The translations under genes were made by a program, and so were the position numbers. DNA of 55,962 nt from Bacteroidales bacterium (GTDB taxonomy: Bacteria > Bacteroidota > Bacteroidia > Bacteroidales > UBA932), in assembly GCA_017447815.1 (NCBI GenBank), contig JAFSMS010000086.1:1-55962 (forward strand). The letters are read 5' to 3'. The notes beneath the pieces are model-generated. The model did not search any database and had not been told where the DNA came from. It was given only the letters and a program-made list of their open reading frames with translations. Positions within the stretch are counted from its first letter, which is position 1. Each line of letters opens with the position of its first letter. This document shows, in pieces, positions 1 through 26,252 of this stretch.

Positions 1-1370
1 ATTATATCAAAAAGAATCCCGGTGAGAAGCGTTACAGGTTCCTGATGGAAAAAAGGTTCCTTAACGGCGAGGATATCGTAAAGGAGGACCTTGATGCGAT
101 TTGCCCGGATGCGGAACTCCAGATTCAGGAAGGTGAAGGACACAGCATCTGGGTGAACTCAAAAATCCTTCAGCGACATGGCATTAACGACGATACGCCG
201 GATCCCATTCCCGGACTTGCCTATTATGTGCGTAAGAACGGACATGTGACCGGGAACATGATTGAAGGTGCAGCGGAAGTTCCTGTCATACTGGACAGCG
301 GAATGGAACTGACTGACGAGCAGGTTGACGCGGCGCTTCAGCGTTGGATTGATTTCTCTGTCGAATACGGTGTGTGCGCGGTATTTGACGCCGGCCTTCC
401 GGGGGATGCCAAGTTCCATGCGAAGGTTTACAAGCGCCTGTGCGAACTGGACAAACAGGGAAAACTTCCTGTTTATATTGACGGCAGCCTGGTGGTCAAT
501 GCGGAGCGGGATGCCGAGGAAGGCCTCAAGGAAGTGAAGCGTTTCCAGCGTGAGTTCAACACGGAGCACCTGAAGGTGCATACCATGAAGATTTTCATGG
601 ACGGTACCCAGAAGATCCACACCGCCGCCATGGTCACGCCCTATGTGGATGTCCATACAACGGGGGTCACCGCCTTCTCGGCAGAAGGAATCGCGAAGCT
701 TTTGAAGGAACTCAACGAGGCCAATCTGGACCTCCACCTGCACACCGTGGGCGAGCGTGCGTCACGCACGGTGCTGGACGGCGTGGAAATGGCCCGGAAA
801 GAGTTGGGGGACAATTATCACGTGAGAGTTACCTGCGCCCATCTGGAGATTCAGGACGACGCTGACCTGGACCGTTTCGCAAAACTGGGCGTATTCGCCA
901 ACTTTACGCCGCACTGGCATTCCGCAGACCCTGCGATTTCGGCTTCCTGGCTGGGCATGGAGCGCGCCTGCAAGCAGTTCCGTTGCAAAACCATCTGGGA
1001 CAGCGGCGCCACGGTAGCCTGGTCCAGTGACAATATCGTCTTTATGGATTTTACCACATGGAATCCCTATCTGGGTATGGAGGTGGGTATGACCCGCTGG
1101 ATTAACGAAAAGACCCGGAACTACCCGTTCGCCAGGGTCGATAAAGTATTCCCTCCCGAGAACGAGAGAATGAGTATTGAAGAGATGATTCTGGGCTACA
1201 CCATCAACGGGGCCAGACAACTTGGCATCGAGGACAGGAAGGGCTCCATCGAGGCCGGCAAGGATGCCGACTTCCTGGTTTTCGACAAAGACCTTCTCAC
1301 GGCCGAACACGAAGGCTTCAGTTACAACATGCCCAAGGAAGTGTATTTCGGCGGAAAAAAGGTAAACTGA
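1..1370 (+). CDS. YtcJ-like amidohydrolase (AH1), 5' end outside window
   Basis: Metal-dependent amidohydrolase of the amidohydrolase_3/YtcJ type, predicted to be cytoplasmic. The reading frame is already open at base 3 and matches the interior of the intact paralogs at 19322 and 21129, so the N-terminus with the first HxH metal motif lies upstream; the ATG at 45 is internal. Visible family features are KIFMDGT (the position of the bridging lysine), the middle metal motif LHLHTVG, TCAHLEI with a metal histidine, and the WSSDN aspartate motif. The C-terminus is GSIEAGKDADFLVFDKD, the usual composite-domain ending. The sequence groups with the paralogs at 19322 and 21129 rather than those at 2975 and 9409. 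A carboxylesterase gene follows after 25 nt. Family assignment is secure; the substrate cannot be told. Confidence 0.9.
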   Translation, partial: YIKKNPGEKRYRFLMEKRFLNGEDIVKEDLDAICPDAELQIQEGEGHSIWVNSKILQRHGINDDTPDPIPGLAYYVRKNGHVTGNMIEGAAEVPVILDSGMELTDEQVDAALQRWIDFSVEYGVCAVFDAGLPGDAKFHAKVYKRLCELDKQGKLPVYIDGSLVVNAERDAEEGLKEVKRFQREFNTEHLKVHTMKIFMDGTQKIHTAAMVTPYVDVHTTGVTAFSAEGIAKLLKELNEANLDLHLHTVGERASRTVLDGVEMARKELGDNYHVRVTCAHLEIQDDADLDRFAKLGVFANFTPHWHSADPAISASWLGMERACKQFRCKTIWDSGATVAWSSDNIVFMDFTTWNPYLGMEVGMTRWINEKTRNYPFARVDKVFPPENERMSIEEMILGYTINGARQLGIEDRKGSIEAGKDADFLVFDKDLLTAEHEGFSYNMPKEVYFGGKKVN

Positions 1371-1395
1371 TACAGTAACACATAAATAACCAACT

Positions 1396-2943
1396 ATGAA
1401 ACAAGATATTATGAAAGCAGTCAAGTGCAACAACGGAACCTTCATCGGCAAAGAGACAGACGAACTGATTATCTGGAAGGGCATTCCCTACGCAACGCAG
1501 CCTGTGGGGAAACTTCGTTGGCAGAAGGCGCTCCCTGCCGCAGACGATGACGGCGTGTATGACGCGACAAAGCCCGGCCATGTTCCTATCGGCCCTGTGA
1601 ACGACTCGATGGGAACGGCGGAGTTCGGCGAAGACTGCCTGGTGCTGAACATCTATTGCAATACCCGCTGCACGGACGGCAAGAAGCCGGTCATGGTGTG
1701 GATTCATGGCGGCGGTTTCTGTGCCGAATCCCAGGCGTCGCCCCTCTACGACCTCACCAGTATTGCCAAGCAGTGCCCCGACATCCTGTTCGTGTCCATC
1801 GACTACCGGCTGGGCTTCCTGGGCTTCATGAATTTCGAGCGGGTACCCGGCGGAGAGAACTTCAAGGAGGCGGGCAACCTGGGTCTGCTGGACCAGCTTG
1901 AGGCCCTCCGGTGGGTGCAGAAAAACATCGCCGGGTTCGGCGGCGATCCGGACAATGTGACGATTTTCGGTGAGTCGGCAGGCTCGGCCAGTGTCACGTT
2001 CCTCCCGCTCATCGACGGAAGCGAGGGGCTTTTCAAGAGAATCATCGCCCAGAGCGCCAACATCGCCTACTGCGACACGATGGAGCACGGCATCCACGTC
2101 ACGCAGAACTTCCTGTCCGTAACGGGCTGCCAGACCATGGACGAGCTGATGGCGCTCACCACCGGGCAGCTTGTGGACGCCTATCTGAAAGCGGCGCTCA
2201 TTGACAAGAACTGCCTTCTGGGAACGGCCAACTTCCCGCTCCTGGACGGCGTCACGCTGCCCGAGGACCGGGCGGAGATGTATAAGATGTGGGGAGACGG
2301 GAAGCGGGCCAAGATAGACATGATGATTGGGTCCAATCAAGATGAAATCAGGTATTTCGTTCCGTCCGAGGGCGGAGAAGAAGGCTTCCTGAATACGCTG
2401 AGGTGGATTGCCAAGCGGGACCGCGCGCTGCTTAACGAGCAGGAGAAGGCCATGTATGACGAGTTTATGGCTACGCTTGCCGGCGAAAGCGAGGGGAGCA
2501 GGTTGGAGCAGTACTGCAACGACATGAACTTCCGCGCAGGTAACACCAATATGGCCATCCGGCACGCGGCCGCCGGCGGCAACACCTACATGTACTTCAT
2601 CAAGAAGCCGGTGACAACTCCCCAGCTTGGCGCAATACACGCGTGTGAGATTCCATACTTGTTCGACACGTGCATACCGGACCCGATGGGAAGCGGAGAG
2701 ATTGTTTCGACCGAAGACTGCGAATTCCGCCACGTCGCCAAACAGATGTGGACTAACTTCGCCCGGACGGGCAACCCCTCCACCGGCAAATACGCGTGGA
2801 AGAAGTTCTCCGGGGACGACCGCCAGACGATGGTCTTCGACGATGCCATCGGCATGCAGAAGGATATTTTCGGAAAACGGGAAGACCTGATGATGTCCTG
2901 GGCGGAGCGCCTCGGGAACGGGTCGTCCAAGCGAGTCTGCTAA
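1396..2943 (+). CDS. Type-B carboxylesterase (CE1)
   Basis: Alpha/beta hydrolase of the carboxylesterase type-B (COesterase) family, 515 aa, expected to cleave carboxylic esters. The oxyanion-hole motif HGGG is at about residues 104-107, the EDCLVLNIY signature at 79-87, and the nucleophile elbow FGESAGS places the catalytic serine near 194. The acid is probably in SNQDEIR and the histidine in AIHACEIP. No signal peptide is visible, which is unusual because many family members are secreted; cytoplasmic location is inferred. Two in-frame ATGs occur (1396 and 1411); the first is used here because neither has a clear ribosome-binding site. The gene lies between two amidohydrolase genes with gaps of 25 and 31 nt, so it is likely co-transcribed with them. 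Confidence 0.92.
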   Translation: MKQDIMKAVKCNNGTFIGKETDELIIWKGIPYATQPVGKLRWQKALPAADDDGVYDATKPGHVPIGPVNDSMGTAEFGEDCLVLNIYCNTRCTDGKKPVMVWIHGGGFCAESQASPLYDLTSIAKQCPDILFVSIDYRLGFLGFMNFERVPGGENFKEAGNLGLLDQLEALRWVQKNIAGFGGDPDNVTIFGESAGSASVTFLPLIDGSEGLFKRIIAQSANIAYCDTMEHGIHVTQNFLSVTGCQTMDELMALTTGQLVDAYLKAALIDKNCLLGTANFPLLDGVTLPEDRAEMYKMWGDGKRAKIDMMIGSNQDEIRYFVPSEGGEEGFLNTLRWIAKRDRALLNEQEKAMYDEFMATLAGESEGSRLEQYCNDMNFRAGNTNMAIRHAAAGGNTYMYFIKKPVTTPQLGAIHACEIPYLFDTCIPDPMGSGEIVSTEDCEFRHVAKQMWTNFARTGNPSTGKYAWKKFSGDDRQTMVFDDAIGMQKDIFGKREDLMMSWAERLGNGSSKRVC

Positions 2944-2974
2944 CGCAGGCTTCTGTATGAAAGGGATTAATGAT

Positions 2975-4654
2975 ATGGATAAAAAGAGTATTGCTGACCT
3001 CGTGGTCTATGGGAAGTTTTTTACTTCCGATAATAATCAGATTGTAGAAGCCTTTGCCGTGAAGGACGGCAAGTACGTGTATGTGGGCGACAAGAAAGGC
3101 GCCGGAGCGTATATTGAGGCTGGCAAAACTCAGGTGGTGGATTATACCGGCAAAGGCCTTGTAATGCCCTCCTGCGGCAACGGACACGCCCACTATTCAA
3201 TAGGCGTTGCTCTGCCTATCGTGGGAACTATAGCCATTGGCGCCACGCCCGACCAGTTCCTGAACGAACTCGTTCCCGCCGCCGTCAAGAAGGCAAGGGA
3301 AACAGGGGCGAAGTTCATCTTCGGCTTCGGCTGGAGCTACTTCACCTTCACGGATCATATTCCTACGCGTCAACAACTGGATGCCATCTGCAGCGATATT
3401 CCTATGTACTTCGCAGATGATGAGGGACATAAGGGTGTAGCGAATACCCTGATGTTGGTCAAAGCCGGCATTATGAAGGTCGACGGCACGGTGCTTAAAA
3501 AGGACAAGGACATCCGCGGAGGAGAGATTGTGATGGGCCCGGACGGAACGCCCACCGGCTTCCTTAAAGAACAGGCCGGCACGTATACCCGCTCTTTCCT
3601 GGACAACGAGAACCTCTATCCCGTTGACGTAGCCAAAGTAAAAGTAGTTGTCAAGGGCATCCAGGAGAAGATGCTGTCAGAGGGTTACACTATGTATATC
3701 GACGGCTGGGGTAACTATTTCAATAACACCAATTTCTTCAAGGCGGCCCAGCAGATGGATAAGGCCGGAGATATGAATATCATCCTGGGTCTTACCTACG
3801 AAGTGGAAAGCTGGATGAACGTAGAGAAAGAATTGAAGAACGCCGTTGATGTTCAGAAGTATGCTACCACTCACGTCAAGACAAACTGGCTCAAACTCTT
3901 TATGGATGGCACGGTGGAAGGCGGAACCGGTTATGTGGAGCCGCTATATCCCGACGGTCACCAGGGCCTGGCCAACTGGACGGAAGAGGAACTGACGGAT
4001 ATTACCCGCAAGACCAATGCTAATGGTATCACCATGCATATCCACACAATGGGCAACAAGGCCGTCAATACCGTGGTGAGTGCCTACGCGAATGGCGGAA
4101 AGGATGAGTTGCGCAATACACTTGTACACGTGCGTAATGTGAACCCGGAGGATTACAAGCGTATGGCCGACCATAATATGTATGTTACTTCCGGCATGCT
4201 CTGGCACAATATGCCGACGGGTGTGTCTGAGATACTGAAAACTATGGTTCCCGCCGGCATGGAGGACAAGTCGTATCCCATGAAATCCTATTTCGACAAC
4301 GGCATCCCCGTAACCTCCCACTCCGACTTCCCTGCCTTGAGCGGTTGCCCTGACGATCCGTTCGGCATTATGGAGATTGCGGTTACATGCGTACACCCGA
4401 CTGTGAAAGGTGATCCCTGGTGGCCTGAGGAGCACCTCACCCGCGAACAGGCCCTTGCCTCCCTCACCATTAACATCGCCAAACAGATGTTCATCGAGAA
4501 GGAAAGAGGCAGCATCCGTGAAGGTAAGTATGCCGACTTCCTCCTGGTAAACAAGGATGTGCTCTCCTGCCCGGAGACAGAGATTCACGAAGCCAAGCCC
4601 ACTGCGACTTACTTCGAAGGTAAGAAGGTTTTCTCCATAGGGCGTGTTTTATAA
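2975..4654 (+). CDS. YtcJ-like amidohydrolase (AH2)
   Basis: Full-length amidohydrolase_3 protein, 559 aa from the chosen start. An upstream in-frame ATG at 2957 would add six residues, but AAAGGGA sits about 9 nt before 2975, which favours the later ATG. The N-terminal metal motif is GNGHAHYS (His 71 and 73), followed by KLFMDGT (bridging-lysine position), MHIHTMG, LVHVRNV and the aspartate in TSHSDFP. All metal ligands are therefore present. It is the most divergent of the five paralogs together with the one at 9409, which suggests a different substrate from the 19322/21129 group. It has no signal peptide. A GLUG-repeat surface protein starts 21 nt downstream. Confidence 0.92.
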   Translation: MDKKSIADLVVYGKFFTSDNNQIVEAFAVKDGKYVYVGDKKGAGAYIEAGKTQVVDYTGKGLVMPSCGNGHAHYSIGVALPIVGTIAIGATPDQFLNELVPAAVKKARETGAKFIFGFGWSYFTFTDHIPTRQQLDAICSDIPMYFADDEGHKGVANTLMLVKAGIMKVDGTVLKKDKDIRGGEIVMGPDGTPTGFLKEQAGTYTRSFLDNENLYPVDVAKVKVVVKGIQEKMLSEGYTMYIDGWGNYFNNTNFFKAAQQMDKAGDMNIILGLTYEVESWMNVEKELKNAVDVQKYATTHVKTNWLKLFMDGTVEGGTGYVEPLYPDGHQGLANWTEEELTDITRKTNANGITMHIHTMGNKAVNTVVSAYANGGKDELRNTLVHVRNVNPEDYKRMADHNMYVTSGMLWHNMPTGVSEILKTMVPAGMEDKSYPMKSYFDNGIPVTSHSDFPALSGCPDDPFGIMEIAVTCVHPTVKGDPWWPEEHLTREQALASLTINIAKQMFIEKERGSIREGKYADFLLVNKDVLSCPETEIHEAKPTATYFEGKKVFSIGRVL

Positions 4655-4675: not shown

Positions 4676-7600
4676 ATGAAACGCACAATGAAATTGAAAC
4701 TCCTTTTTCTCTCGCTGCTGTGTGCAGTCGCGCAGGGGGCGTTGGCCCAAGTCAGCGTGTGGGACGGCAAGTCAAAAGAACCTCCCGTTATAGTAGAGTG
4801 GCCTGTTTATGCCATTAAGAATGCAGCTCAATTTGCCTGGCTTATTGACAGCCCGAGGGATTATATGAGTGGTAAGTATTATTACCGCTTGGACACCGAC
4901 CTGGACATGGGCGACCAAACGTGGACACCTATTGGTTATATAAACGGGGAAGTCGTAGGCTTCTATTCGCACCTGCTTGGTCAGGGGCACACCGTCCGTA
5001 TAAACATCAGTGGCGTCACCGAAAACTATCAGGGACTGTTTGCGAAGATCGGATACGAGGGGTCGGTTGATAACCTCCACGTGATTGGTAAGATATCATG
5101 CAGCCGTTCCCGCCTGGTGGGCGGTATTGCCGGCGAGAACGACGGCGGCAGCATCAGCAACTGCTGGGTGAGCGCTGACGTAAGTTCTGACTGGAAAGAA
5201 TCCGCGTCGGCATACACGGCCAAGGTGGGCGGCATTGTCGGCGAGAACCACGCAGGCACGATAGAGTACTGCTGCGTGACGGGCGACGTGACCAACAACG
5301 ATGCCGATGTGGGCGGAATTGCAGGTTACAACTGCAGTGATAATGGTGGCGGCATCATCAGGCACTGTACTTTCTACGGCACGCGCAACAGTACGCACTC
5401 GCAGGACAATAAATACGTGGGGGACCAGGATGCAACCATGGAAAATATGTACGACTCGTTCAACCAGGGCGAGTACGATGCTGCCGGCGCCAGAGCCTTG
5501 TACCGCTATGCCCTCAAGTACCCCTACGCCATCAATGTCTCCACCGAGGGCTATGGCACCGTTGAGGTCAGTGCCGGTGGTGAGAACAATATTCCTGGCT
5601 GGCGCAAGGGTGAAACCATTACGCTGACCTGTAAGACAGGTATGGTGAAAAGCATCGAAATCAAGGACTCAGGCGACGACACAGTCTCGTTGCAAGGTCA
5701 GTCTCATGATGGAACAATGTATTGGTTTGTCATGCCGAAGGGCGGTGTCAAAATCAAGCTTGTATTCGTCACGCCGGGCTGGCTCAACCATGCCGGCACG
5801 GAGGCCGACCCTATCAGTATCGGCAGCTCGGCCGACTGGGACGGCTTCGCCAATTACGTCAGCAACGTTACCAGCTTCAGTGGCAAGTATGTGAAGCTGA
5901 ACGCCGACATCAGCGCCTCCACCATGGCAGGCAGCAGCGACCATAAGTTCCAGGGCACATTCCTCGGCAACAACAAAACACTGACGCTTAATCTGAGTGC
6001 CACCGGCAACGACTGTGCTCCGTTCAGATACATCGACGGTGCAACCATCCGTGACTTGAAGATTGCGGGGACCGTCAACACATCGGCAAAGTTCGGCGCC
6101 AGCATTGCCGCCCATAACAGCGGCACCAGCACCATCACCAACTGCCACAGCTCGGTGACCATTGGCGGCACCATCAGCGGTGACGGCACCCACGGCGGTT
6201 TTGTGGCAATGAATGAAGGCGATGCCACGCTTGTCTTTGCAGGCTGCACATTCACAGGCGGCATGACAGGCAGCGCAGACTACAACGGCGGATTCGTGGG
6301 CTGGAATGCGGGTTCGACAATCCATTACACCCACTGCATCTTTGCACCCGCAGAGCTGACTATGGGCGCGTCGAACAGCTGCACCTTCAACCGCAACGGC
6401 AGGAACAACATTACACAAAGCTACTTTACCAGAGCATTTGGCGAAGCCCAGGGTACGAAGGCCATCGCCATTAATAAAGCCCCCGCCAACCTGGGCAGTC
6501 AGGTACAGGACTATGGTATGGTAAAGGCCTACGAGAACGGTTTGCTCTACGACGGCAAGTACTACACGGCTATTTCCATCCCCGGCTCAGGCACAGAGGC
6601 CAACCCTTGTTTAATCGGCACCGCAGACCAGTGGAATGACTTCACCGGTTACATCGCAAACGGATATACCTTCAGCGGCGAGTTCGTGAAGCTGGCCGGC
6701 AACATCAGTATCTCGACGATGGCAGGCACCGACAATGCCAACTCTTTCCAGGGCACCTTCGATGGCGACGGACACACACTGACGGTTAACTATAATACCT
6801 CAGAACCCCGGACCGCTCCGTTCCGTCACGTCAAGAATGCCGTCATCAGGAACCTTACCGTGGCCGGTACCATCACCACCAGCGCACAGTTTGCCGCCGG
6901 CATCGTGGGCGAGTCGCACGGCTCACTGACTCTTACGGGTTGCCGCAGTTCGGTTGCCATCAACAGCAGCGTCCAGGGCGACGGCACCCACGGCGGCCTG
7001 GTGAGCACACTGAGCGGAAAAGACAATGCCATCACCATCGAAGGCTGTGTCTTCGACGGTTCCTTTGCCACGACAAACGGCACCTCCAACTGTGGCGGAT
7101 TCATCGGATGGCCGGTTTATAACAGGCCCACTATCCGCCACTCGCTCATGATGCCCGGCAGCGTTGCGGCGGGTATGCTGAAGAACACCTTCTCCCGCTG
7201 GCACACCACCTACATGCCAACCATCGAAAAGTGCTTCTTCATCGCCACTGAGAATCTGCCTGAAGACCAGGGATCGGCGGGTCAGGGCGTTTCCGCCATT
7301 CCGGACCAGTTCGGCAAACTTGAGAAAGACTATGGCTTGGTGAAGGTTTACACGAACGGCATTCAGTATGACGGCATGTACTATCTGGAGAGTGCTTTGA
7401 TTCTGCCTGGATCAGGCACGGAATCAGACCCCTATACTATCGGCAGCACCGCAGATTGGGACAACTTTGCCAAGCAAACCGGCAGCGGCTGTCACTATAC
7501 CAATCAATATATAAAGCTGACAAGCGATATCAGCGTGACAGCTATGGCCGACACATTTGAAGGTACCTTTGACGGCAATGGGCACACGCTCACCATCAAT

Positions 7601-8773: not shown

Positions 8774-8782
8774 GAAAAAGTT

Positions 8783-9388
8783 ATGAAAAAGATAATTATA
8801 GCATTGTTTGCCGCCTCGGCACTCCTGTTGGGCCTGACGGGCTGCGATAAAGAAGTAGACATTAAGGAACTGGAACAGAGCCTTGTGGGCATCTGGTGGG
8901 ACGCGTATGAGTATTCGGACATCACGGAGACCGGCGTGGCCTTTGACAAGGTGCTTTTGGCCGTAAAGGCCGATGCCAACCACAGCGGCTGCCTCTACCT
9001 GGGCGCATACGACTCCAAAAGCGACGCCCTGGTTGCCGTCTATGGCGGCCCGGAGGATGCCGGCTTCAAATGGGAGCTGACCGGCAAAGGCGATATAGTG
9101 CTCAGCGATCCCGCCACCGGCGAGAGCACGGTGCTCACTCGCGCCGACGGAGGCAGCAGCTATGGCAACGATATGACCAATGTCAATGGAACGAACATGA
9201 CGTACACAAATGGCAGCGTGACGGTGACCAACGGCAACTATTCCGGCACACTCACCAAGGCCGACACCGGGAAAGAGGGAGAAATCAATGAGCAGTTCTC
9301 CGCGCTGTTCTCTGCCATTGCCACTAACCTCTCTTCTGAAGATAACATCCGTATCAAAGACACCCCCGGCAACACCTGGGGAAGATAA
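8783..9388 (+). CDS. Small lipoprotein of unknown function
   Basis: Predicted lipoprotein of 201 aa with a lipobox at GLTGC (Cys 22), followed by DKEVDIKE. The acidic stretch just after the cysteine resembles the Bacteroidota lipoprotein export signal that sends lipoproteins to the cell surface; this is an inference. The body begins LVGIWWDAYEY and is rich in G, D, N and T; the pattern is compatible with a small beta-barrel or lipocalin-like fold, but no family was recognised. It starts 9 nt after the GLUG1 stop, so the two are probably made together as a surface pair. The next gene, an amidohydrolase, begins 20 nt downstream. Confidence 0.8.
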   Translation: MKKIIIALFAASALLLGLTGCDKEVDIKELEQSLVGIWWDAYEYSDITETGVAFDKVLLAVKADANHSGCLYLGAYDSKSDALVAVYGGPEDAGFKWELTGKGDIVLSDPATGESTVLTRADGGSSYGNDMTNVNGTNMTYTNGSVTVTNGNYSGTLTKADTGKEGEINEQFSALFSAIATNLSSEDNIRIKDTPGNTWGR

Positions 9389-11915: not shown

Positions 11916-11971
11916 AGATGAATATGATACGATGAGCAGCCATGAATGCTAATAATCTAAAATAGTGAATT

Positions 11972-13612: not shown

Positions 13613-13618
13613 AGCCAA
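13602..13618 (+). repeat. 17-bp direct repeat, left copy
   Basis: TAAATGAATAAAGCCAA occurs here at the 3' end of CE2 and again, identically, at 19271-19287 at the 3' end of GLUG2. In both places it supplies the last codons and stop (Asn-Glu-stop). The copies bracket two lipoprotein genes and GLUG2. Confidence 0.85.
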
Positions 13619-18900: not shown

Positions 18901-19281
18901 GTCACCATTCTCGGAGAGCCCAAGTACGTGACCTCCTTCTATGACGGCGCGCAGAGTTACCGGCTTACCGGCGGCGCACTGGCCTATACGGTAGATAAGG
19001 ATGGCATTTTCCACCGGATTGGGGACGATAGCAGCGATGTGATTCCCGCCGGCACGGCCGTAATCATCTTGTCCGACACCACTACCTTCGACCTGGTTGC
19101 CCTGGATTCGACCGATGTGACGGCCCGTTCCGGCAACATCCTTCTGGGCTCGGACACGGAAATTTCCTGTCCCGCGGGCAGCGTGTATGTGCAGGGCATT
19201 GTCGGGGATACCCCCGGCTTCTACAAGTACACCGGCAGCACCCTCCCGGCCGGGAAGGCCTACTATGTCGTAAATGAATAA
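15964..19281 (+). CDS. Giant secreted GLUG-repeat protein (GLUG2)
   Basis: Exported protein of 1105 aa and close paralog of GLUG1. The signal peptide ends near PVAWA (about residue 27). GLUG repeats VGGIAGEN, VGGIAGEN and VGGLVGYN lie at about 158-240, followed by an InlB-B-like repeat and two modules starting near 372 and 646, corresponding to the second and third modules of GLUG1. The C-terminus is unrelated to that of GLUG1: it has another InlB-like stretch (FVFRKYTSSGGTLSGTTLTM) and then an AYTVDKDGIFHRIGD-type terminal domain. DNA similarity to GLUG1 is high in patches, for example 6960-7130 against 17460-17630, which points to recent duplication or gene conversion. Adhesin or matrix-type function is inferred. 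Confidence 0.88.
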   Translation: MKNLVVNRILSILLLLFAAVPVAWADGDEWSVWDGKTKTFPEHMGHTYEPLAYHIHIHSAAELAYIIEHFNEAMNQDGTYAFCNQYYYLDVNIDMGDTPWTPIGNKNGSITELDLGEFHGNGHTIRFKIKDATENYQGLFAKIGLGGRVYNLHVEGDISCSRSRLVGGIAGENNGKIANCWVSANVRSDWKEPGSAYTAKVGGIAGENNGTIEYCCVSGDVTNNDADVGGLVGYNSRDGKVRHSTFHGTRYSTHSQEYTIIGDQDGTIDSCYDIFQSSEVTSDQKMYNYALKYPFAINVTTEGEGAYQLSAGDEKDITRWYPGAAVTLTKILGSIQSLSIKDAEGKVVNYNGDINDAVTFTMPRKDVNITIAYGKGTEKNPFIIDSADEWDRIVNLVNSGEDSFRGEYVKLTNDISVGRMMGESDVHSFQGTFDGAGHTLTVDFNTSEPRTAPFRHVLNATIKNLTVTGIITTSAQFAAGIVSESYGSLRLEGCRSSVTINSSVQGDGTHGGLVSRLSGQDNNIVIAGCVFDGSFATTGGTTNCGGFIGWPVYNKPSITHSLMVPKSVAAGMLNNTFARWHTTYSPNITKSLFVATDNLPADQGAPAVAYATAPNNLGNLEKDYGVIQAHQNGFRFEGKYYMDSRVMLPGEGTEENPYTIGSEEDWNIFVGNIDRYHYYTGNFVKLTKDISVTTPASFFDGIFDGDGHTLTITLQGEWPIIFAPFVMTDNATIKNLKTAGSLKSEFTHVLGGIVGLASGNTTIENCSSSVAMSIPIYSSSGIEAKTGGIVSSVRASSKYSAKITGCSFTGSITYTRAEASGGGGIVGDVSDEGLVTISQCVFAPSAINMPKMETFNSIAGGSLSHTAITDCYHTEPNVKAQSAKISSITGGEGVTVSNAGAVKQEYDAGGLTFYETGLKVGDVLYAASGESVSLKLGHDERDGFVFRKYTSSGGTLSGTTLTMADADVTVDAVWMKLAGVTILGEPKYVTSFYDGAQSYRLTGGALAYTVDKDGIFHRIGDDSSDVIPAGTAVIILSDTTTFDLVALDSTDVTARSGNILLGSDTEISCPAGSVYVQGIVGDTPGFYKYTGSTLPAGKAYYVVNE
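17080..18580 (+). repeat. Two tandem ~270-residue modules inside GLUG2
   Basis: Protein-level repeat with approximate starts 17080 and 17902. The units open with GTEKNPFII and GTEENPYTIG and align with modules two and three of GLUG1; the module near 5773-6576 of GLUG1 has no counterpart here. Confidence 0.8.
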
Positions 19282-19321: not shown

Positions 19322-20971
19322 ATGAGAGCAGACAAGATTATCAAGAACGCCAAAATCTTTACGGCGGACAAAAACCAGCCCAGGGCCACGGCTTTGGTAG
19401 TGAAAGACGGAAAATTCGTCTATGTAGGCGACGAGGCAGGCCTTTCGGCCTATGAAGGCGAAGTGACCGACCTGGGGGGCAAGTTCATCATGCCCGGTAT
19501 CTTTGACAACCATGTGCATGTGACCCTGCCCGTGGGTTTTGCCTATGCGGAAGCCAGCGAGCGCTTTGCCTGCAACGGCAAAAAGGAGGCCCTGGACTTT
19601 ATGGCCGATTTTATCGGCAAGCATCCCGGCCGGAAGTGCTACCGGTTCATCCTGGAGAAAAAGTGCCTGAATGGCGAGATGCTCACCACGGAAGACCTTG
19701 ACGCCGTCTGCCCGGATGCCGAGCTCCAGATTCAGGAGGCGGAATTCCATAGCGTGTGGGTGAACTCCCGCGTGCTCCGGCGCCATGGCATTACCGACGA
19801 AACGCCGGACCCCGTACCCGGACTCAGCGTTTATGAGCGCAAGGACGGCAAGTTGACCGGCTATATCATTGAAGGCTCTGCGGAGGTGCGCATCGTCCTG
19901 GACGGTTCCATGGACCTCAGTGACGAGCAGATTGACGCCGCGCTCCAGGCCTGGATCGATTTCTCCGTGAGTCATGGTGTATCGGCGGTCTTTGACGCCG
20001 GGATTCCGGGCTTCCCTGAGTTCCATGAGCGGGTGTACCAGCGCCTGAAGGTTATGGATGAGCAGGGAAAACTTCCCGTCTATGTAGATGGATGCTATGT
20101 GATTGCCGCCAACTGGCAGGCGGAGGAAGGCTTGAAGGAACTCAAGCGTTTCCGGAAGGAATACAATACGGAGCACCTCAAGATTCACACCATGAAGATT
20201 TTCATGGACGGCACGCAGAAGATCCATACTGCAGCGATGCTCACGCCCTATGTGGACGTTCCCGAGAAGGGTGCCACCGCCTTCAACAAGGAGGATCTCG
20301 CCGCCCTGATGGTCAAACTCAATGGGGAAGGCCTGGACCTTCATATGCATACCGTAGGCTCTGCAGCCTCCCGCGTGGCGTTGGACGCCGCGGAACTGGC
20401 CAGAAAGGAAGTGGGAGACAAGTTTACCATGAAGGTCACCTGCGCCCACCTGGAAGTGCAGGACGACGCCGACCTGGACCGTTTTGCCAAGTTGGGCGTT
20501 ATCGCGAACTATACGCCCTGGTGGCATGCCGGCGACTACAAGGTATGGGGCACCTGGCTGGGTGAGGAGCGGGCCCGCAAGCTGTTCCGCTGCAAGACGC
20601 TATGGGACAGCGGCGCCCTGGTTACCTGGTCCAGCGACAACGTCGTTTTCAGTTTCGAGGTCTGGAATCCCTATCTGGGCATGGAAGTGGGCATGACGCG
20701 CCATATTACAGAAAAGACCAATGCCCCCGCCTTTACCAGAGGTGAAGTGCTTCCTCCCGAAGACCAGAAAATGAGCGTTGAGCAAATGCTGTTGGGCTAC
20801 ACCATCAACGGTGCCAGGCAGTTGGGCGTGGAGAACAAAAAGGGCTCCATCACCCCCGGCAAGGATGCCGACTTCCTGGTATTCGACAAAGACCTGCTCG
20901 CGGCCGAGCACGAGGGCTTCAGCCATAATCTGCCTTCGCTTGTGTATTTCGAAGGAAAGAAGGTGAACTGA
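19322..20971 (+). CDS. YtcJ-like amidohydrolase (AH4)
   Basis: Amidohydrolase_3 protein of 549 aa without a signal peptide. Metal motifs are FDNHVHV (His 64 and 66), KIFMDGT, LHMHTVG, TCAHLEV and WSSDN. The first 60 residues are almost identical to those of the AH5 gene downstream, including a shared DNA run of about 30 bases near 19340-19375, so the two are recent duplicates; AH1 belongs to the same subgroup. It follows GLUG2 by 40 nt. A 157-nt gap with a long hairpin separates it from AH5, the widest gap among the first fourteen genes of the block. The substrate is unknown; hydrolysis of an amide, carbamate or related bond is expected for the fold. Confidence 0.93.
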   Translation: MRADKIIKNAKIFTADKNQPRATALVVKDGKFVYVGDEAGLSAYEGEVTDLGGKFIMPGIFDNHVHVTLPVGFAYAEASERFACNGKKEALDFMADFIGKHPGRKCYRFILEKKCLNGEMLTTEDLDAVCPDAELQIQEAEFHSVWVNSRVLRRHGITDETPDPVPGLSVYERKDGKLTGYIIEGSAEVRIVLDGSMDLSDEQIDAALQAWIDFSVSHGVSAVFDAGIPGFPEFHERVYQRLKVMDEQGKLPVYVDGCYVIAANWQAEEGLKELKRFRKEYNTEHLKIHTMKIFMDGTQKIHTAAMLTPYVDVPEKGATAFNKEDLAALMVKLNGEGLDLHMHTVGSAASRVALDAAELARKEVGDKFTMKVTCAHLEVQDDADLDRFAKLGVIANYTPWWHAGDYKVWGTWLGEERARKLFRCKTLWDSGALVTWSSDNVVFSFEVWNPYLGMEVGMTRHITEKTNAPAFTRGEVLPPEDQKMSVEQMLLGYTINGARQLGVENKKGSITPGKDADFLVFDKDLLAAEHEGFSHNLPSLVYFEGKKVN

Positions 20972-21128: not shown

Positions 21129-22796
21129 ATGAAAGCAGACAAAATCATAAAAAACGCCAAAATCTTTACGGCGGACAAAAACCGGCCGCAGGCGACTGCA
21201 CTGGCGGTAAAAGACGGCAAATTCGTCTATGTGGGAGACGAGGCCGGCCTTTCGGCCTATGATGGAGCAGTCACGGACCTGGGCGGAAAGTTCATCATGC
21301 CCGGCATCATTGACAGCCATGTCCATGTGACCACGGGCGTAGGGTTTGAATACACGGATTTGGGAGTTCCCGTCATGTGCGACACCAAAAAAGACTGCCT
21401 GGACTTCATGGCCGATTATATCGCCAAAAATCCCGGACTGGAGCGTTACCGCTTCATGATGGAACGGACCTGCCTGGGTGGAGAGGAACTAACAAAGGAA
21501 GACCTGGACGCGATATGCCCGGATGCGGAGATGCTGGTCCTGGAGGGCGAAGTGCACAGCAACTGGGTGAACTCCAAGATTTTGGCGGCGCACGGATTGA
21601 CGGACGAAACGCCGGATCCCGTGCCGGGGCTGGCCTACTTCGTGCGCAAGGACGGCCACCTGACGGGGAACTCGTTCGAGACCGCCAGCTGGCCCATGCT
21701 CTTTGACGGAATAAGCCAACTGACGGACGAACAGATTAAAACGGCCGTCCTGCGCTGGTTAGACAATTCCATCGCGTATGGCGTAAGCGCTGTATTTGAT
21801 GCCGGGTTCCCGGAGCATAATGGGGTCAATGAGCGGATTTACGCGTGTCTGCAGGAGTTGGACAGGCAGGGGAAGCTTCCGGTTTATGTGGACGGATGCT
21901 ATGTGCTTACCCAGCCCCGAAAAATGAAAGAAGCCCTGGAGGGCGTGAAGCGTTTCCGGGAGAAGTTCAATACGGAGCACATGAAGGTACATACGCTGAA
22001 AATCTTCATGGACGGCACCTTGAAGATTGAAACGGCGGCCATGGTAACGCCTTACGTGGATACCGGCCTGACGGGTGCTACGGCTTTTGACGCAGAGCAA
22101 GTGTCGGAAATTTTGAAAGAACTCAATGAGGCCGGACTGGACCTGCATGTCCACACGGTGGGCGAGGCTGCTTCCCGCGTGGTGCTGGACGGCGTAGAGA
22201 TGGCCCGGAAGGAGCTGGGAGACCGTTTCCGCGTGAAGGTTACCTGCGCTCACCTGTGGGTGCAGGACGACGCCGATTTGGACCGTTTTGCCCAATTGGG
22301 CGTGACGGCCAATTTTACGCCGTGGTGGCACAGCGGCAACGTGGGAGGCAACCCCATTGCGTACTGGCCCACGTTCATCGGAGAAAAACGTGCACATTCC
22401 ATGTTCCGCTGCAAAACCATGTGGGACAGCGGTGCGCTGGTGACCTGGTCCAGCGATGAGGTCTTCTATGGCGATTTCAAGAACTGGAGCCCCTATCTTG
22501 CCATGGAGATTGGCATGACGCGTTGGATTAACGAGAAAACCCGCTTCGAGGAAGCCAGCAGAACCGTTGCGGCTTTCCCTCCCGGGAGCGAGAAGATGAA
22601 CATAGAGGAAATGATGCTGGGCTACACCATCAACGGCGCCAGGCAGCTGGGCGTGGAGGCCGCCAAGGGCTCCATCACCCCCGGAAAGGATGCCGATTTC
22701 CTGGTATTCGACAAAGACCTCCTCACGGCCGAGCAGGAAGGCTTCAGCTACAACATGCCGGCAGAAGTGTATTTTGAAGGAAAGAAAATAAACTAA
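21129..22796 (+). CDS. YtcJ-like amidohydrolase (AH5)
   Basis: Amidohydrolase_3 protein of 555 aa without a signal peptide. Metal motifs are IDSHVHV (His 64 and 66), KIFMDGT, LHVHTVG, TCAHLWV and the aspartate in WSSDEVF. It is a near neighbour in sequence of AH4 and AH1. Compared with AH4 it has a small insertion (GNVGGNPIAYW) in the loop before the KRAHSMFRCKT segment, and Glu instead of Asn after the metal-binding aspartate. Both changes lie near the expected active-site mouth and may alter specificity. The DUF3089 hydrolase gene starts 18 nt downstream. Confidence 0.93.
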   Translation: MKADKIIKNAKIFTADKNRPQATALAVKDGKFVYVGDEAGLSAYDGAVTDLGGKFIMPGIIDSHVHVTTGVGFEYTDLGVPVMCDTKKDCLDFMADYIAKNPGLERYRFMMERTCLGGEELTKEDLDAICPDAEMLVLEGEVHSNWVNSKILAAHGLTDETPDPVPGLAYFVRKDGHLTGNSFETASWPMLFDGISQLTDEQIKTAVLRWLDNSIAYGVSAVFDAGFPEHNGVNERIYACLQELDRQGKLPVYVDGCYVLTQPRKMKEALEGVKRFREKFNTEHMKVHTLKIFMDGTLKIETAAMVTPYVDTGLTGATAFDAEQVSEILKELNEAGLDLHVHTVGEAASRVVLDGVEMARKELGDRFRVKVTCAHLWVQDDADLDRFAQLGVTANFTPWWHSGNVGGNPIAYWPTFIGEKRAHSMFRCKTMWDSGALVTWSSDEVFYGDFKNWSPYLAMEIGMTRWINEKTRFEEASRTVAAFPPGSEKMNIEEMMLGYTINGARQLGVEAAKGSITPGKDADFLVFDKDLLTAEQEGFSYNMPAEVYFEGKKIN

Positions 22797-22814: not shown

Positions 22815-23780
22815 ATGAACAAGATTTTACCACTGGATTATTCCAACAAGGCCAATTGGTGCAAGATTCCTGAAGTCACCAAGGAATTCGATACGTTTTA
22901 CGTATATGCTACCGAGTACATCCTGGGCAGCATGGCCCCGGGTGCTCCCGACTATGCGGACATGGACAATGCAGAAATGCTGGAAGGTGCTGAGGGTGAG
23001 TACCTTCTGCATGCCACTGCCTTTGCGGATTCCACCAACGTATTCATGCCGTTCTACCGTCAGGTGGGCTTGCACCATGCCGGCGAGGTATGGAAGCGGG
23101 ATGGAATCTTTGACGCCTCCATTGCCGGTATGCCTTATGGCGATATCGTCGCTGCGCTGGACTATTACTTCGAGCACTACAATGGCGGTCGCCCGTTCAT
23201 TATTGCCGGCCATAGCCAGGGATCGGCTATCGTCAAGATGGTGCTTAAGAAATACTTTGCGGAGCACCCCGATTACTACAAGCGCATGGTGGCCGCCTAT
23301 CCGATTGGCTATGCTTTCACCAAGGACGAATTCAAGACCTATCCGCACATGAAGTTCGCCACCGGCGAGTGCGACACGGGCGTTATCGTCACCTGGAACA
23401 CCGAAGGCCCCCGGAACAGGGAGGTAAATGCCGATACTTGCGTGTTGCAGCCCGGCTCCATGAGCATCAATCCGCTCAACTGGAAACTGGATGACACCTA
23501 TGCTCCGGCCAGCCTGAACCTGGGCTCCCTTTACATGGACGAGAAAACCGGCGAGGTGAAGATGGGGGACGTCGGCGCAGATGCGCAGGTGTTCCCGGAC
23601 CGCGGCGTGGTGGTGACGCATGCCAAGGGCGAGCCAATGACTGCAGAAAAGGCCGCAGTGGCCGAATATTTCTTCGGCCCGGATGGCCGCCACGGCGAGG
23701 ATTATGCGCTCTTTTACTGCAACATCAAGGCCAATGTGGCCAAACGCGTTGCAGCGTATAAGGCGGCGAATAACGCATAA
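22815..23780 (+). CDS. DUF3089 alpha/beta hydrolase
   Basis: Protein of 321 aa of the DUF3089 family, an alpha/beta-hydrolase group often annotated as lysophospholipase-like. The nucleophile motif GHSQGS occurs in FIIAGHSQGSAIVKMVLKK, and the N-terminal FDTFYVYATEY and FMPFYRQVGL segments are typical of the family. No signal peptide is present, so it would act in the cytoplasm. It is the fourth predicted ester or amide hydrolase type in the cluster, following AH5 by 18 nt and preceding the MATE transporter by 23 nt. The real substrate is unknown. Confidence 0.88.
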   Translation: MNKILPLDYSNKANWCKIPEVTKEFDTFYVYATEYILGSMAPGAPDYADMDNAEMLEGAEGEYLLHATAFADSTNVFMPFYRQVGLHHAGEVWKRDGIFDASIAGMPYGDIVAALDYYFEHYNGGRPFIIAGHSQGSAIVKMVLKKYFAEHPDYYKRMVAAYPIGYAFTKDEFKTYPHMKFATGECDTGVIVTWNTEGPRNREVNADTCVLQPGSMSINPLNWKLDDTYAPASLNLGSLYMDEKTGEVKMGDVGADAQVFPDRGVVVTHAKGEPMTAEKAAVAEYFFGPDGRHGEDYALFYCNIKANVAKRVAAYKAANNA

Positions 23781-23803
23781 GAAATAGAACCACATGACAT
23801 TCG

Positions 23804-25138
23804 ATGGCACCCAGAATACATTTATCCGCGCATTTTACAGACAGTAAATTACTTCGGTTTACACTGCCGTCCATTGCGATGAACATATTTGCATCGCTGT
23901 ACATCGTGGTGGACGGCATGTTTGTCGCCAATTTGGCGGGGAAGTCGGAATTTGCGGCGGTGACCCTCATCTTTCCCATACTGAACATTCTCGGTACCAT
24001 CGGCTATATGTTCGGTGTGGGCGGTAACGCACTGGTCGCAAAGACGCTTGGGGAGAACGACCGGCAGAAGGCAAACCGCCTGTTCTCCTTGATTGTGCTG
24101 GCCTCTTCTGTCGTGGGTTTTCTGCTGATGGTGCTGGGCTATGTCTTTATGCCCCGGATTGCAAGCCTCCTGGGAGCGGAAGGCAAACTTCTTGAAAACA
24201 GTGTGCTGTACGGGCGCATCTTTATTCTGGCTCTGCCCGCCTGGATTTGGGTGTATGAGTTCCAACTATTCTTCATCGCAGCCGAGAAACCTCATCTGGG
24301 GCTTGCCGTTACCGTATTCACCGGGCTTTGCAATATCGCGTTGGATGCGCTGTTTATGATAGGCTTCAAATGGGGACTTGCGGGCGCGGCGGCTGCTTCG
24401 GCCATCACGCAGATTGTGGGAGGCGTTTTTCCGCTCATCTACTTCAGCCGGAAGAACGACAGTATCCTCAGGCTGGTGAAGCCTGCGTGGGACGCCCGGT
24501 CGCTTGTCAAATGCTGTGTAAACGGCTCTTCGGAATTCATGGAGGAAGCCGCCGCTTCTTTTGTGGGGATTTTCTACAACGTGCAGTTGCTGAAGTATGC
24601 AGGGGAGGACGGAGTGGTCATTTATGGCCTGTTGATGTATGTCAGCCTTATTTTTTCCGCCATTTTTGTGGGGTATTCCAACGGGATAGGACCGGTCATC
24701 AGTTACAATTACGGCTCGCGGAATCACGAGGAACTGAAGAATCTGCGAAAGAGGAGCCTGAAGATCATCGCAATCACATCCGTTGCCATGTTTGTCCTTT
24801 CTCAACTGCTGGCCCGGCCGTTTTCCGCCCTGTTCCTGCGGGATGGAGGGAAATTGTTGGCCGATGCCGTCCATGCGTTCCGGATTTTCTCTTTCGCCTA
24901 CTTGTTTACGGGAATGGCGGTTTTCGGTTCGGCCTTTTTTACCGCCTTGAACAACGGGCAGGTATCGGCCCTGATCGCTTTTTTAAGGACATTCGTGTTT
25001 GAACTCGGGGCTGTGCTTCTGTTGCCGCTGCTGCTCGGAGTGGACGGGATATGGTCTTCCGTTGTTTTCGCAGAATTCATGGCGGCCGTCACGGGGACGG
25101 TATTTATAATCGCCCTGCAAAAGAGATATCATTATTAA
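23804..25138 (+). CDS. MATE-family efflux transporter
   Basis: Integral membrane protein of 444 aa with about twelve hydrophobic segments. The N-terminal TLPSIAMNIFASLYIVVDGMF and the GVGGNALVAKTLGE segment are characteristic of the MATE/NorM-DinF superfamily of Na+ or H+ driven exporters; the GxGxN/A-x-K-x-L-G pattern suggests the DinF/MepA-like branch. It follows the DUF3089 gene by 23 nt. In context it may export a substrate or product of the cluster enzymes, or protect the cell from it; this is inference. The start ATG at 23804 is the first in frame after the preceding stop. Confidence 0.92.
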   Translation: MAPRIHLSAHFTDSKLLRFTLPSIAMNIFASLYIVVDGMFVANLAGKSEFAAVTLIFPILNILGTIGYMFGVGGNALVAKTLGENDRQKANRLFSLIVLASSVVGFLLMVLGYVFMPRIASLLGAEGKLLENSVLYGRIFILALPAWIWVYEFQLFFIAAEKPHLGLAVTVFTGLCNIALDALFMIGFKWGLAGAAAASAITQIVGGVFPLIYFSRKNDSILRLVKPAWDARSLVKCCVNGSSEFMEEAAASFVGIFYNVQLLKYAGEDGVVIYGLLMYVSLIFSAIFVGYSNGIGPVISYNYGSRNHEELKNLRKRSLKIIAITSVAMFVLSQLLARPFSALFLRDGGKLLADAVHAFRIFSFAYLFTGMAVFGSAFFTALNNGQVSALIAFLRTFVFELGAVLLLPLLLGVDGIWSSVVFAEFMAAVTGTVFIIALQKRYHY

Positions 25139-25144
25139 ATTGTT

Positions 25145-25152
25145 TATCTTTG
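25145..25152 (+). promoter_or_regulatory. Candidate -7 element TATCTTTG
   Basis: TATCTTTG matches the Bacteroidota TAnnTTTG element just after the MATE gene. No clear TTTG lies 20 nt upstream. It could drive the phosphatase gene at 25313 through a leader of about 150 nt, or a small ORF at 25187. Confidence 0.5.
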
Positions 25153-25186
25153 CAAGGATTTCCCAAATACGATAAACGTGTATAAA

Positions 25187-25255
25187 ATGAACGACTACAG
25201 AATCATTGACCTTCAGCACTGGACCGTTTTGAAGCCGACTGCAAGCGTAATGTGA
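25187..25255 (+). other. Possible gene remnant: 22-codon ORF behind a promoter
   Basis: A short ORF runs from ATG 25187 to TGA 25253-25255 and begins MNDYRIIDLQHW, which resembles the start of CatA-like chloramphenicol acetyltransferase proteins (IDL-x-x-W). The resemblance stops after about 12 residues. It lies 34 nt behind a -7 element. It may be the 5' stub of a deleted gene, a leader peptide, or chance. The remainder of 25139-25312 shows no other gene. Confidence 0.25.
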
Positions 25256-25312
25256 CGCGCCTGCCCGAGGAGCGTTGTTCGAGATTAATTTATTTGGCGT
25301 TTAAGATTGATT

Positions 25313-26194
25313 ATGAAACGTATTTTCACTTTTTTGATTCCTTTTATGATGGTGTATGCCTGCTCACCTTCCTCTGCCCCCAAGGACAGAATCCTTCATT
25401 TCGACGGTATTGAGAACGCCCGCGAACTGGGCGGTCTTGTGATGCAGGACGGCCGGACCATCCGCAGCGGAAAACTGGTCCGTTCCGCTGAACTCTCCAA
25501 GGCATCCGACAACGATGTCGCCATTCTGAAGAAACGTTTTGCCCTGAGCGACGTTTTCGATTTCCGCTTTGAAAAGGAGCGCAGCGCCAAACCGGACCGC
25601 GAGATAGAAGGCGTCACCAACACCTGGCTTTCTACGCTGCCGGCGGTTTTTGTCGCCAGTTTCTCATCCGGACGTGCCGACAGCACCACGGTACAGTCGG
25701 ACAATCTGCTGGAGGCCCTGGCCTCCTATGCCTTCCATCCCAAGGCCCAGGCGATGGCCCAGAAACTGTATCCGGCCATCGTGATGGATACCACGTCGCA
25801 GAAGCGCTATGGCGAATTCCTCCGCGGCGTCCTGGAGGCCGATGGCGGCGCGCTCTGGCATTGCTCCCAGGGCAAGGACCGCTGCGGATGGGGCTCCGCC
25901 TTCGTCCTGGCGGCTCTGGGTGCCAGCCGGGAAACCATTGTGGAAGACTTTGCCCTGTCCAATGCCTCCTATGCTCCGGCCATCGAGGCCCTGTCGGCCA
26001 AAATCAAAGAAAAGGGAGGGGGAGAGGCCGAACTGGGCTTCATCAATGCCATGATCGGCGTGAATGTCGAGAACTTTGAGCATACCCTGGACTTGATTGA
26101 TTCGCAGTATGGCTCCCTCCAGGCCTATCTGGAAAAGGCCCTCGGTTTCACGGCCCGGGATCAGGAAAAGATGAAGAAAAAATATTTGCGCTAA
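25313..26194 (+). CDS. Lipoprotein tyrosine-phosphatase-like protein
   Basis: Protein of 293 aa with a lipoprotein signal (VYAC, Cys 17) and a Y_phosphatase3-type domain. FDGIENARELGGL is the usual N-terminal signature and WHCSQGKDRCG carries the C-x5-R catalytic loop (Cys 184, Arg 190). The usual T or S after the loop arginine is Cys here (DRCG). The frame opens at TTG 25307, but ATG 25313 is the better start. Being lipid-anchored, it would act in the periplasm or at the surface, on phosphoesters or phosphoinositide-like substrates rather than on cytoplasmic proteins. It is the last + strand gene before the terminator at 26221. It has its own upstream promoter candidate, so membership of the long operon is uncertain. 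Confidence 0.85.
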   Translation: MKRIFTFLIPFMMVYACSPSSAPKDRILHFDGIENARELGGLVMQDGRTIRSGKLVRSAELSKASDNDVAILKKRFALSDVFDFRFEKERSAKPDREIEGVTNTWLSTLPAVFVASFSSGRADSTTVQSDNLLEALASYAFHPKAQAMAQKLYPAIVMDTTSQKRYGEFLRGVLEADGGALWHCSQGKDRCGWGSAFVLAALGASRETIVEDFALSNASYAPAIEALSAKIKEKGGGEAELGFINAMIGVNVENFEHTLDLIDSQYGSLQAYLEKALGFTARDQEKMKKKYLR

Positions 26195-26220
26195 ACGAGC
26201 GCGGCTTCCTGAAAAGAAAA

Positions 26221-26252
26221 AGCCCCTGCAGATAACTGCGGGGGCTTTTTTT
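26221..26252. terminator. Bidirectional intrinsic terminator
   Basis: Perfect 11-bp stem AGCCCCTGCAG / CTGCGGGGGCT (one T-G pair) with loop ATAA, followed by a run of seven T and preceded by an A-rich tract (26212-26221). It ends the long + strand block and, read the other way, terminates the tRNA-Cys transcript. Confidence 0.92.

Follow-up and report, generated by a model that had tools for sequence, protein, structure and literature searches.

Integron-type gene cassettes are single genes that stand head to tail. The metallo bile salt hydrolases of Bilophila are described in a preprint as secreted Amidohydro_3 enzymes with an extra C-terminal domain, and the same preprint gives Bilophila 10 short paralogues of 482-572 amino acids (aa), one of them predicted to be secreted, several of which are weak in bile salt hydrolase activity and are placed in an uncharacterised cluster (PMC13081902, preprint). 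Here we discuss a block of hydrolase genes on a Bacteroidales contig, JAFSMS010000086.1 (hereafter the window, meaning the whole stretch of 55,962 bases that was analysed), which is one of the 118 contigs of a 2.5-Mb metagenome-assembled genome (MAG; 86% complete, 4% contaminated). Its amidohydrolases are like the Bilophila enzymes in family (PF07969, COG1574) and in metal-site motif, and unlike them in having neither the extra C-terminal domain nor, by eye, a signal peptide, and in being grouped with esterases. We think that the block is very probably a variant of a hydrolase operon that moves between ruminant-gut bacteria and reassorts, a view drawn from sequence comparison. As an overall explanation, we consider that an exchangeable cytoplasmic detoxification operon, mobile and reassorting, fits best, and we would give it an even chance.

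The block (also called the island below) occupies positions 3-26194 and consists of 16 tandem genes, all on the + strand, with intergenic gaps of -8 to 56 nucleotides (nt) apart from two of 157 and 168 nt. Gene calls and a Pfam scan of the 16 proteins bear out the inventory and one-strand layout given in an earlier note on this DNA, with Amidohydro_3 found five times (E 1.9e-50 to 1.6e-66), COesterase twice, DUF3089, APH and MatE once each, and GLUG weakly in both giant proteins; the Y_phosphatase3 gene at the right end was absent from that note's list. The genes are as follows, with the family names used below.

3..1370, + strand: AH1, YtcJ-type amidohydrolase, family AHa; Amidohydro_3 4.6e-62 over profile positions 79-471, 5' end beyond the contig edge.
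1396..2943, + strand: CE1, type-B carboxylesterase, family CEa; COesterase 3.1e-95.
2957..4654, + strand: AH2, amidohydrolase, family AHb; Amidohydro_3 1.9e-50.
4676..8773, + strand: GLUG1, exported GLUG-repeat protein, putative local passenger; weak GLUG match.
8783..9388, + strand: lipoprotein 1, putative local passenger; lipobox by eye, no Pfam or NCBIfam match.
9409..11040, + strand: AH3, amidohydrolase, family AHc; Amidohydro_3 2.9e-64.
11049..11915, + strand: APH-like kinase; NCBIfam TIGR02172 8.7e-81 (above cut-off), Pfam APH 8e-13.
11972..13612, + strand: CE2, type-B carboxylesterase, family CEb; COesterase 3.8e-96.
13605..14570, + strand: lipoprotein 2, putative local passenger; lipobox by eye, no Pfam or NCBIfam family.
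14599..15951, + strand: lipoprotein 3, putative local passenger; weak Lcl_C match, below the Pfam cut-off.
15964..19281, + strand: GLUG2, exported GLUG-repeat protein, paralogue of GLUG1, putative local passenger; Glug 4.8e-10.
19322..20971, + strand: AH4, amidohydrolase, family AHa; Amidohydro_3 1.6e-66, query of the locus survey.
21129..22796, + strand: AH5, amidohydrolase, family AHa; Amidohydro_3 3.7e-66.
22815..23780, + strand: DUF3089 alpha/beta hydrolase; DUF3089 1e-38.
23804..25138, + strand: MATE-family exporter; MatE 1.3e-31, NCBIfam MATE models (best PRK09575) below their cut-offs.
25307..26194, + strand: lipoprotein-like tyrosine phosphatase, Y_phosphatase3 1.1e-59; its membership of the block is uncertain.

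The neighbourhood search suggested in the earlier note was run with AH4 against a collection of species genomes and gave 84 relatives, of which the best 80 were kept; these are 78 distinct loci, in about 73 genomes by title (five genomes were met twice). Because AH4 was the query, every one of these loci has an AHa gene and islands without AHa escape, one of which was met through CE2 (G313/L134). The hydrolase genes are not unlinked in all relatives: the same families adjoin in loci of both Bacteroidota and Bacillota, which upholds the note's claim that they belong together. Moreover, all five Amidohydro_3 matches above 170 bits in the window's assembly lie inside the block (the next best has 46.6 bits), and since the same families adjoin in tens of genomes, the clustering exceeds chance. 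The recurring families, in varying combinations, are AHa, AHb and AHc with two further amidohydrolase families (AHd, AHe), CEa and CEb with a third of esterases (CEc), DUF3089, MATE or MATE2, GNAT, U220 and TM4.

Ruminants dominate the titles of these loci, 57 of the 78 having either a ruminant word or one of the prefixes RUG, RUI and SIG (rumen series), while the other 21 name no habitat. Lachnospiraceae AD3010, among these 21, is a rumen isolate. Six of the 21 are loci of Oribacterium isolates and the rest are UBA or SRR records; Oribacterium C9 comes from cattle rumen, and WCC10, NK2B42 and KHPX15 are Hungate1000 strains (PMC6439248).

Family counts refer to 89 loci or pieces, which include the window and regions fetched later, leave out two duplicates, and treat pieces of one island separately (e.g. 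L099/L100, L101/L102 and L013/L103). AHa is present in 34 from Bacteroidota, 52 from Bacillota, and one each from Synergistota, Spirochaetota and Lentisphaerota. The Bacteroidota/Bacillota counts of other families are 17/15 for CEa, 13/11 for CEb, 19/8 for DUF3089, 6/10 for MATE, 15/11 for AHd and 10/12 for U220, and in the whole set MATE relatives occur in 17 loci, MATE2 in 10, GNAT in 11 and PAP2 in 5. U220 (22 members of about 200-220 aa, e.g. L043:9485-10150) and TM4 (19 members of about 185 aa, e.g. L076:1676-2242) gave no Pfam match, and by eye both look membrane-associated; Bacteroidota and Bacillota islands alike have them, although most TM4 genes are from Bacteroidota.

One might object that such sets are artefacts of assembly or binning, or chance clusters of common gut genes. 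The window is indeed a MAG contig, and for several of the relatives, on short MAG contigs, the bin may have been wrongly named: L020, labelled "Victivallales" (Lentisphaerota), is 98-99% identical in DNA to the Bacteroidia loci L021 and L024 and is probably a mislabelled or mis-binned Bacteroidia contig. However, contigs as long as 151 kb (RUG395) and 613 kb (RUG12106) carry the same sets, as do cultured isolates, namely Oribacterium WCC10, C9, KHPX15 and NK2B42 and Lachnospiraceae AD3010. The objection is already contradicted by the cultured isolates, and we regard it as very improbable.

The median best cross-phylum identity per Bacteroidota protein is 89.3% for CEa, 86.6% for CEb, 86.5% for AHd and 84.6% for AHa, with lower values for MATE (80.9%), AHc (76.4%), AHb (71.8%) and DUF3089 (68.8%). 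Among the window's own proteins, AH1 is 92% identical to a relative in RUG13332 and 88% to one in Oribacterium WCC10, CE1 and the MATE exporter are 89% and 77% identical to proteins of Bacillota MAGs, AH2 is 74% identical to its relative in AD3010, and AH5 98.6% to that in RUG13987. RpoB of the window's genome is 95% identical to that of RUG395 and, over the longest matched stretch, 47-53% to those of five cultured Lachnospiraceae and RUG12106; a short C-terminal stretch reaches 66-72% across phyla, and seven of the eight genomes queried gave a match. These identity levels make it clear that genes have passed between the phyla at least once.

Within the genus the set is accessory: AHa (E <= 1e-100) was found in three of 61 genomes and CEb (at least 90% identity) in the same three, and a fourth, G313, carries MscS-TM4-AHd-CEa-GNAT-CEc without AHa up to its contig end. 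When 294 other genomes of the order were searched with CE1 (E <= 1e-50), the best identity was 35% and any match was found in only 10. Synonymous divergence (dS) from RUG395 is 0.01-0.23 for seven shared island genes (0.23 for CE2, 0.19 for AH4; the other five are GLUG and lipoprotein genes) versus 0.57 for rpoB. Six genomes have a counterpart of the window's chromosomal stretch to the right of the island, with DNA identities mostly of 66-81%; this right-flank stretch and the island lie on contigs C7 and C19 of RUG395, where the island thus has a different position in the chromosome, and on C2 and C5 of RUG13332. In one stretch collinear with RUG13987, dS is 0.43 for AH4, 0.07 for AH5 and 0.42 for the DUF3089 gene, and therefore even neighbouring genes differ in history.

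Gene order was compared in the 71 loci where three or more members could be mapped. Of 326 pairs of close neighbours there, 318 are on the same strand, and the median gap is 51 nt. The 384 ordered pairs fall into 124 distinct ones, compared with 144.0 in within-locus shuffles (standard deviation 4.3, minimum 130 of 500 shuffles), so that the order is largely, not wholly, scrambled; the commonest pair, AHa followed by DUF3089, accounts for 21. The single fixed pathway proposed in the earlier note (capture, hydrolysis, phosphorylation, export) is not supported, given this variation in content and order and a kinase that is 25% identical across phyla, and parallel activities look likelier than sequential steps. 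DNA blocks shared with relatives (listed at a minimum of 84% identity and 80 nt) are often bounded at single-gene edges; for example, the CE2 block, shared with L015, L016, L017 and L026, runs from the start codon (11968-11972) to 13597-13605. Longer blocks are shared with RUG395 (9 kb) and RUG13987 (4.5 kb).

Two loci and one tract of the window bear on how genes may enter such an operon. The Bacteroidia contig L026 carries an AHc block of 1.75-1.79 kb with 96-97% DNA identity to KHPX15, NK2B42 and AD3010; the G+C content of the block is 60% in L026, KHPX15 and NK2B42, the Bacillota whole-locus median being 45%. Just before this AHc there is a scar in which the beginning of one AHa gene is joined to the end of another; the intergenic sequence after it, with an AGGAGG ribosome-binding site, is that of the Lachnospiraceae (by eye). 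In L015 (Bacteroidales) the AHa gene is intact, and in the segments displayed it is 92-100% identical to AH4 of L014 and L026 up to about base 1560; beyond this point it is 61-70% identical to its Bacteroidales relatives and, in the last two segments, 93-100% identical to AD3010 and KHPX15. The switch lies about 90 nt before the AHa stop, at the place where L026 has its scar, and the last segments enter the intergenic region before a new amidohydrolase gene, AHc. The tract in the window concerns the following two features.

20777..20911, + strand: possible gene-conversion tract in AH4, near its 3' end, with synonymous sites unusually close to those of AH5.
22602..22736, + strand: partner tract in AH5 of the possible conversion, from the synonymous-site comparison with AH4.

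In codons 486-530 of AH4 the proportion of synonymous differences (pS) from AH5 is 0.24, compared with 0.48-0.71 in the other 11 segments (binomial p of roughly 3e-5 to 1e-4, uncorrected for the 12 segments and several gene pairs compared). The evidence for conversion is mixed: the last 45 codons, just downstream of this tract, give a weaker effect (p 0.04). In the same tract the AH1 pairs have 0.41 and 0.45 (a weaker dip), the L021 pair has 0.60 (none), and the AH4/AH5 pair of G332 has 0.43 but 0.33 in its own first segment.

These observations suggest to us, as a possibility on the doubtful side, that the AHa gene is a recombination handle, the conserved 3' end of its paralogues letting foreign DNA recombine in. 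Incoming DNA from other phyla would then bring the next gene into the operon, and a self-sustaining, integrase-free shuffling of cassettes would keep a community-wide hydrolase pool circulating in the ruminant gut. The idea is a hypothesis drawn from these two loci and one tract. Among 44 core-family gene remnants that lie inside loci and not at contig ends, 3' ends number 21, 5' ends 16 and internal pieces 7; in 26 cases the remnants belong to one broken gene, leaving 18 lone remnants (10 3', 6 5' and 2 internal), and any preference for 3' ends in these counts is slight at best. We considered, and rejected, that L081 has a chimeric AH4/AH5 gene, AH4-like sequence being present in all segments. 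We did not use 11 AHa rows flagged as chimeric, eight of these flags stemming from AH1-type references without an N-terminus and the remaining three (L040, L041, L063) having a different pattern. In Oribacterium NK2B42 an insert of about 400 nt (L041:11623-12066) splits the region upstream of AHc, and its flanks overlap by 9 nt, a footprint expected of a small insertion element.

The capture step of the pathway in the earlier note, taken as a task of the GLUG proteins and lipoproteins, is not supported. Their close copies are confined to the window and its near kin (GLUG1 is found among the loci only in RUG395), and their ratio of nonsynonymous to synonymous divergence (dN/dS) is 0.31-0.45 versus 0.06-0.18 for the hydrolases. 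The GLUG1 ratio was taken against a paralogue, and those of the lipoproteins and GLUG2 at dS 0.03-0.09, a range where such ratios run high, although AH5 at dS 0.07 still has 0.11. We thus rejected these proteins as capture partners belonging to the shared set, and the GLUG proteins are, in our interpretation, local passengers of the island. Repeats within the window (D4, D8 and D12-D14) go with GLUG2 being a paralogue of GLUG1. Directly before GLUG1, RUG395 has only a piece of CEc and the final 115 codons of CEa (L103:8245-8679), a deletion remnant at the place where complete CE1 and AH2 genes lie in the window. The kinase belongs to TIGR02172, a family described from Fibrobacter succinogenes, and APH-like kinases recur in a few loci. 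Relatives of the Y_phosphatase3 protein are 54-79% identical in L023, L028, L050 and L088 and 27-30% in L059 and L076.

On the right the block is bordered by a transfer RNA (tRNA) gene.

26252..26325, - strand: tRNA-Cys, right border of the block, 3' end towards the island.

No clear second copy of the tRNA-Cys end was found in the window or the assembly, and the left border lies past the contig. As a general integration site tRNA-Cys was rejected: any tRNA is present in only 3 of 56 scanned loci, and no att repeat was found for the window. In RUG13332 the same tRNA-Cys borders other, mobile-element-like genes (L126, G368:C2:104000-114000), including by eye a tyrosine-recombinase-like open reading frame (ORF; 7631-9019) and primase-like ORFs, with a 13-nt repeat of the tRNA end at 9202; in this genus the tRNA may be a hotspot for integration. 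Spread on viruses or plasmids was also rejected, a peptide-pattern scan of IMG/VR giving no relative and the best plasmid match listed being 31%. Nine of the 16 proteins were compared with the PADLOC models of anti-phage systems, and none matched.

For the neighbours we scanned 112 of 169 unlabelled ORFs (28 of 36 intercalated, 84 of 133 flanking), after excluding those shorter than 100 aa or with more than 52% R+G+A+P+H, and considered the 25 commonest families per batch; the commonest had three members per batch and included MatE, Abhydrolase_3 and alpha-acetolactate decarboxylase. No integrase was found among these families or the 16 island genes (attC sites were not searched).

Regulators differ between the phyla. 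Bacillota islands adjoin histidine kinases and response regulators (LytR in 10 loci, HK2 in 10, HTH-RR in 12, HK in 11), while AraC and MscS genes lie near Bacteroidota islands, MscS-like genes near an island being found in Bacteroidota only. In 7 of 13 non-duplicate placements MscS is the first gene mapped and TM4 follows it at a distance of 18 nt or less; in the remainder it follows TM4 or MATE2 or stands elsewhere. A TAnnTTTG box, the Bacteroidetes promoter box, occurs 23-95 nt upstream of the mapped MscS start in 7 of 12 cases, a count without shuffle control. On the + strand of 1-26252 no two-box promoter was matched (one fixed spacing, at most 1 mismatch). The island genes would be co-transcribed, and MscS may stand first in about half of the MscS-bearing Bacteroidales islands, often behind such a promoter-like box, the left end being missing from the window.

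These linked sensor kinases and response regulators of Bacillota, and AraC and MscS of Bacteroidota, could also be read as signs of enzymes that modify or turn over a signal molecule or lipid, such as an acyl amide or ester, which the cell or its community makes and MATE exports. The recurring membrane-like U220 and TM4 would suit this, as would two CEc esterases, one with membrane-like segments N-terminal to the esterase domain (L078:3832-5766) and the other with a DUF1269 domain preceding it (L047:7862-9937). However, there are no biosynthetic condensation enzymes among the neighbour families shown, the regulators vary by phylum, and the island is patchy within the genus; we find this explanation improbable.

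H64, H66, K292, H341, H343, H376 and D439, which comprise the HxH, bridging Lys, further His and Asp of the metal site, are invariant across 46 aligned amidohydrolases, AH2-AH5 among them, and the Ser nucleophile motifs of CE1, CE2 and the DUF3089 protein are recognisable by eye. The statement in the earlier note that all catalytic motifs are intact agrees with this for these seven proteins, while AH1 has no HxH in the window, the 5' part of the gene lying beyond the contig edge. AH1, AH4 and AH5 are mutually 65-68% identical. The four complete amidohydrolases (543-565 aa, the Pfam match extending to the C-terminus) have no N-terminal signal by eye, as signal peptides and lipoboxes were judged throughout, and inspection of the hydrolase N-termini supports the cytoplasmic location proposed for them. 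Nor is the block a polysaccharide locus, as had also been said: Pfam finds no SusC/SusD or glycoside hydrolase in the 16 genes. Among solved structures, AH3 and AH4 have only two full-length matches, both uncharacterised metal-dependent hydrolases, CE1 matches 2ogs (4.5e-63), 1qe3 (2.7e-60) and 8s6d (9.4e-45) over most of its length, and the DUF3089 protein, the kinase and U220 gave no convincing match. The low dN/dS of the hydrolases (0.09-0.12 for CE1) shows that they are kept under strong purifying selection. The same genome has a second DUF3089 gene outside the island (G000:C31:16231-16809).

We infer amide or ester small molecules as the kind of substrate. Diverse amides and esters would enter the cell unaided and be hydrolysed by the cytoplasmic metallo-amidohydrolases and serine esterases, with occasional conjugation by a kinase or acetyltransferase and efflux of the products by MATE; this would resemble a phase I/II/III detoxification set, whose repertoire gene exchange would update as feed chemistry varies. 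That the function is detoxification, and neither catabolism nor modification of self-made compounds, we put at slightly less than an even chance. The most serious alternative, which we think possible though less likely, is a catabolic operon whose cytoplasmic hydrolases make available the nitrogen and carbon of amides and esters in the diet, its content tracking related substrates. Many hydrolase paralogues under purifying selection in a one-strand operon speak for it, as do the two-component regulators near Bacillota islands and the few binding-protein and transporter neighbours given below. On the other side, no assimilation pathway or widely shared importer is seen among the families shown for the scanned neighbours, the families combine freely, and an efflux family recurs in both phyla.

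Several points weigh against the interpretation that we prefer. The one-strand operon suits catabolism equally well; SBP_bac_3 binding proteins make up 4 of the 112 scanned neighbours, with single ORFs having citrate (CitMHS), dicarboxylate or sulfate transporter domains, and that no dominant importer was seen holds for those 112 ORFs and the 25 commonest families per batch. MATE2 and GNAT are found in Bacteroidota only, some MATE relatives are 25-48% identical, and the kinase, as its identity indicates, is not shared between the phyla. The trees of CEa and CEb are mostly phylum-grouped, with 4 and 2 phylum changes of which strong branches force only 1, and we therefore rejected them as proof of repeated transfer. 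Finally, L015 (6.5 kb) and L026 (19 of 25 kb covered) are both MAG contigs, and chimeric assembly is possible.

If this explanation is correct, the ruminant-gut community owns a common, exchangeable toolkit of cytoplasmic amide and ester hydrolases that crosses phyla, with DNA identity reaching 96-97% at best. The toolkit would give direct access to the ways in which microbes of ruminants detoxify what is in the feed. It would also supply enzymes not yet characterised, some from hosts in culture (Oribacterium, AD3010), and a natural case of gene-by-gene operon shuffling, possibly driven by paralogue homology. Searches of the open-access PMC literature (subscription journals being outside its scope) gave no description of the gene set; its parts are known families, and the cross-phylum island, shuffled gene by gene, appears to be new within that literature.

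Compared with known systems, CE1 is like p-nitrobenzyl esterase, Est50 and, at a lower score, fumonisin B1 esterase in matching them over most of its length, while none of the known type-B carboxylesterases is close enough for transfer of substrate, and unlike them the islands often hold two or three diverged CE families. As a horizontally gained accessory array of protective genes, the island is like the interbacterial defence clusters reported from Bacteroidales (PMC12247911, PMC10470768); unlike these, it encodes small-molecule hydrolases instead of immunity proteins and crosses phyla, and it is not a member of that group. Lastly, it is like integron cassettes in that single genes are reordered head to tail on one strand, and unlike them in its short gaps (the median given above) and in that the only join to be resolved falls within AHa, at its 3' end, and not at a dedicated recombination site.

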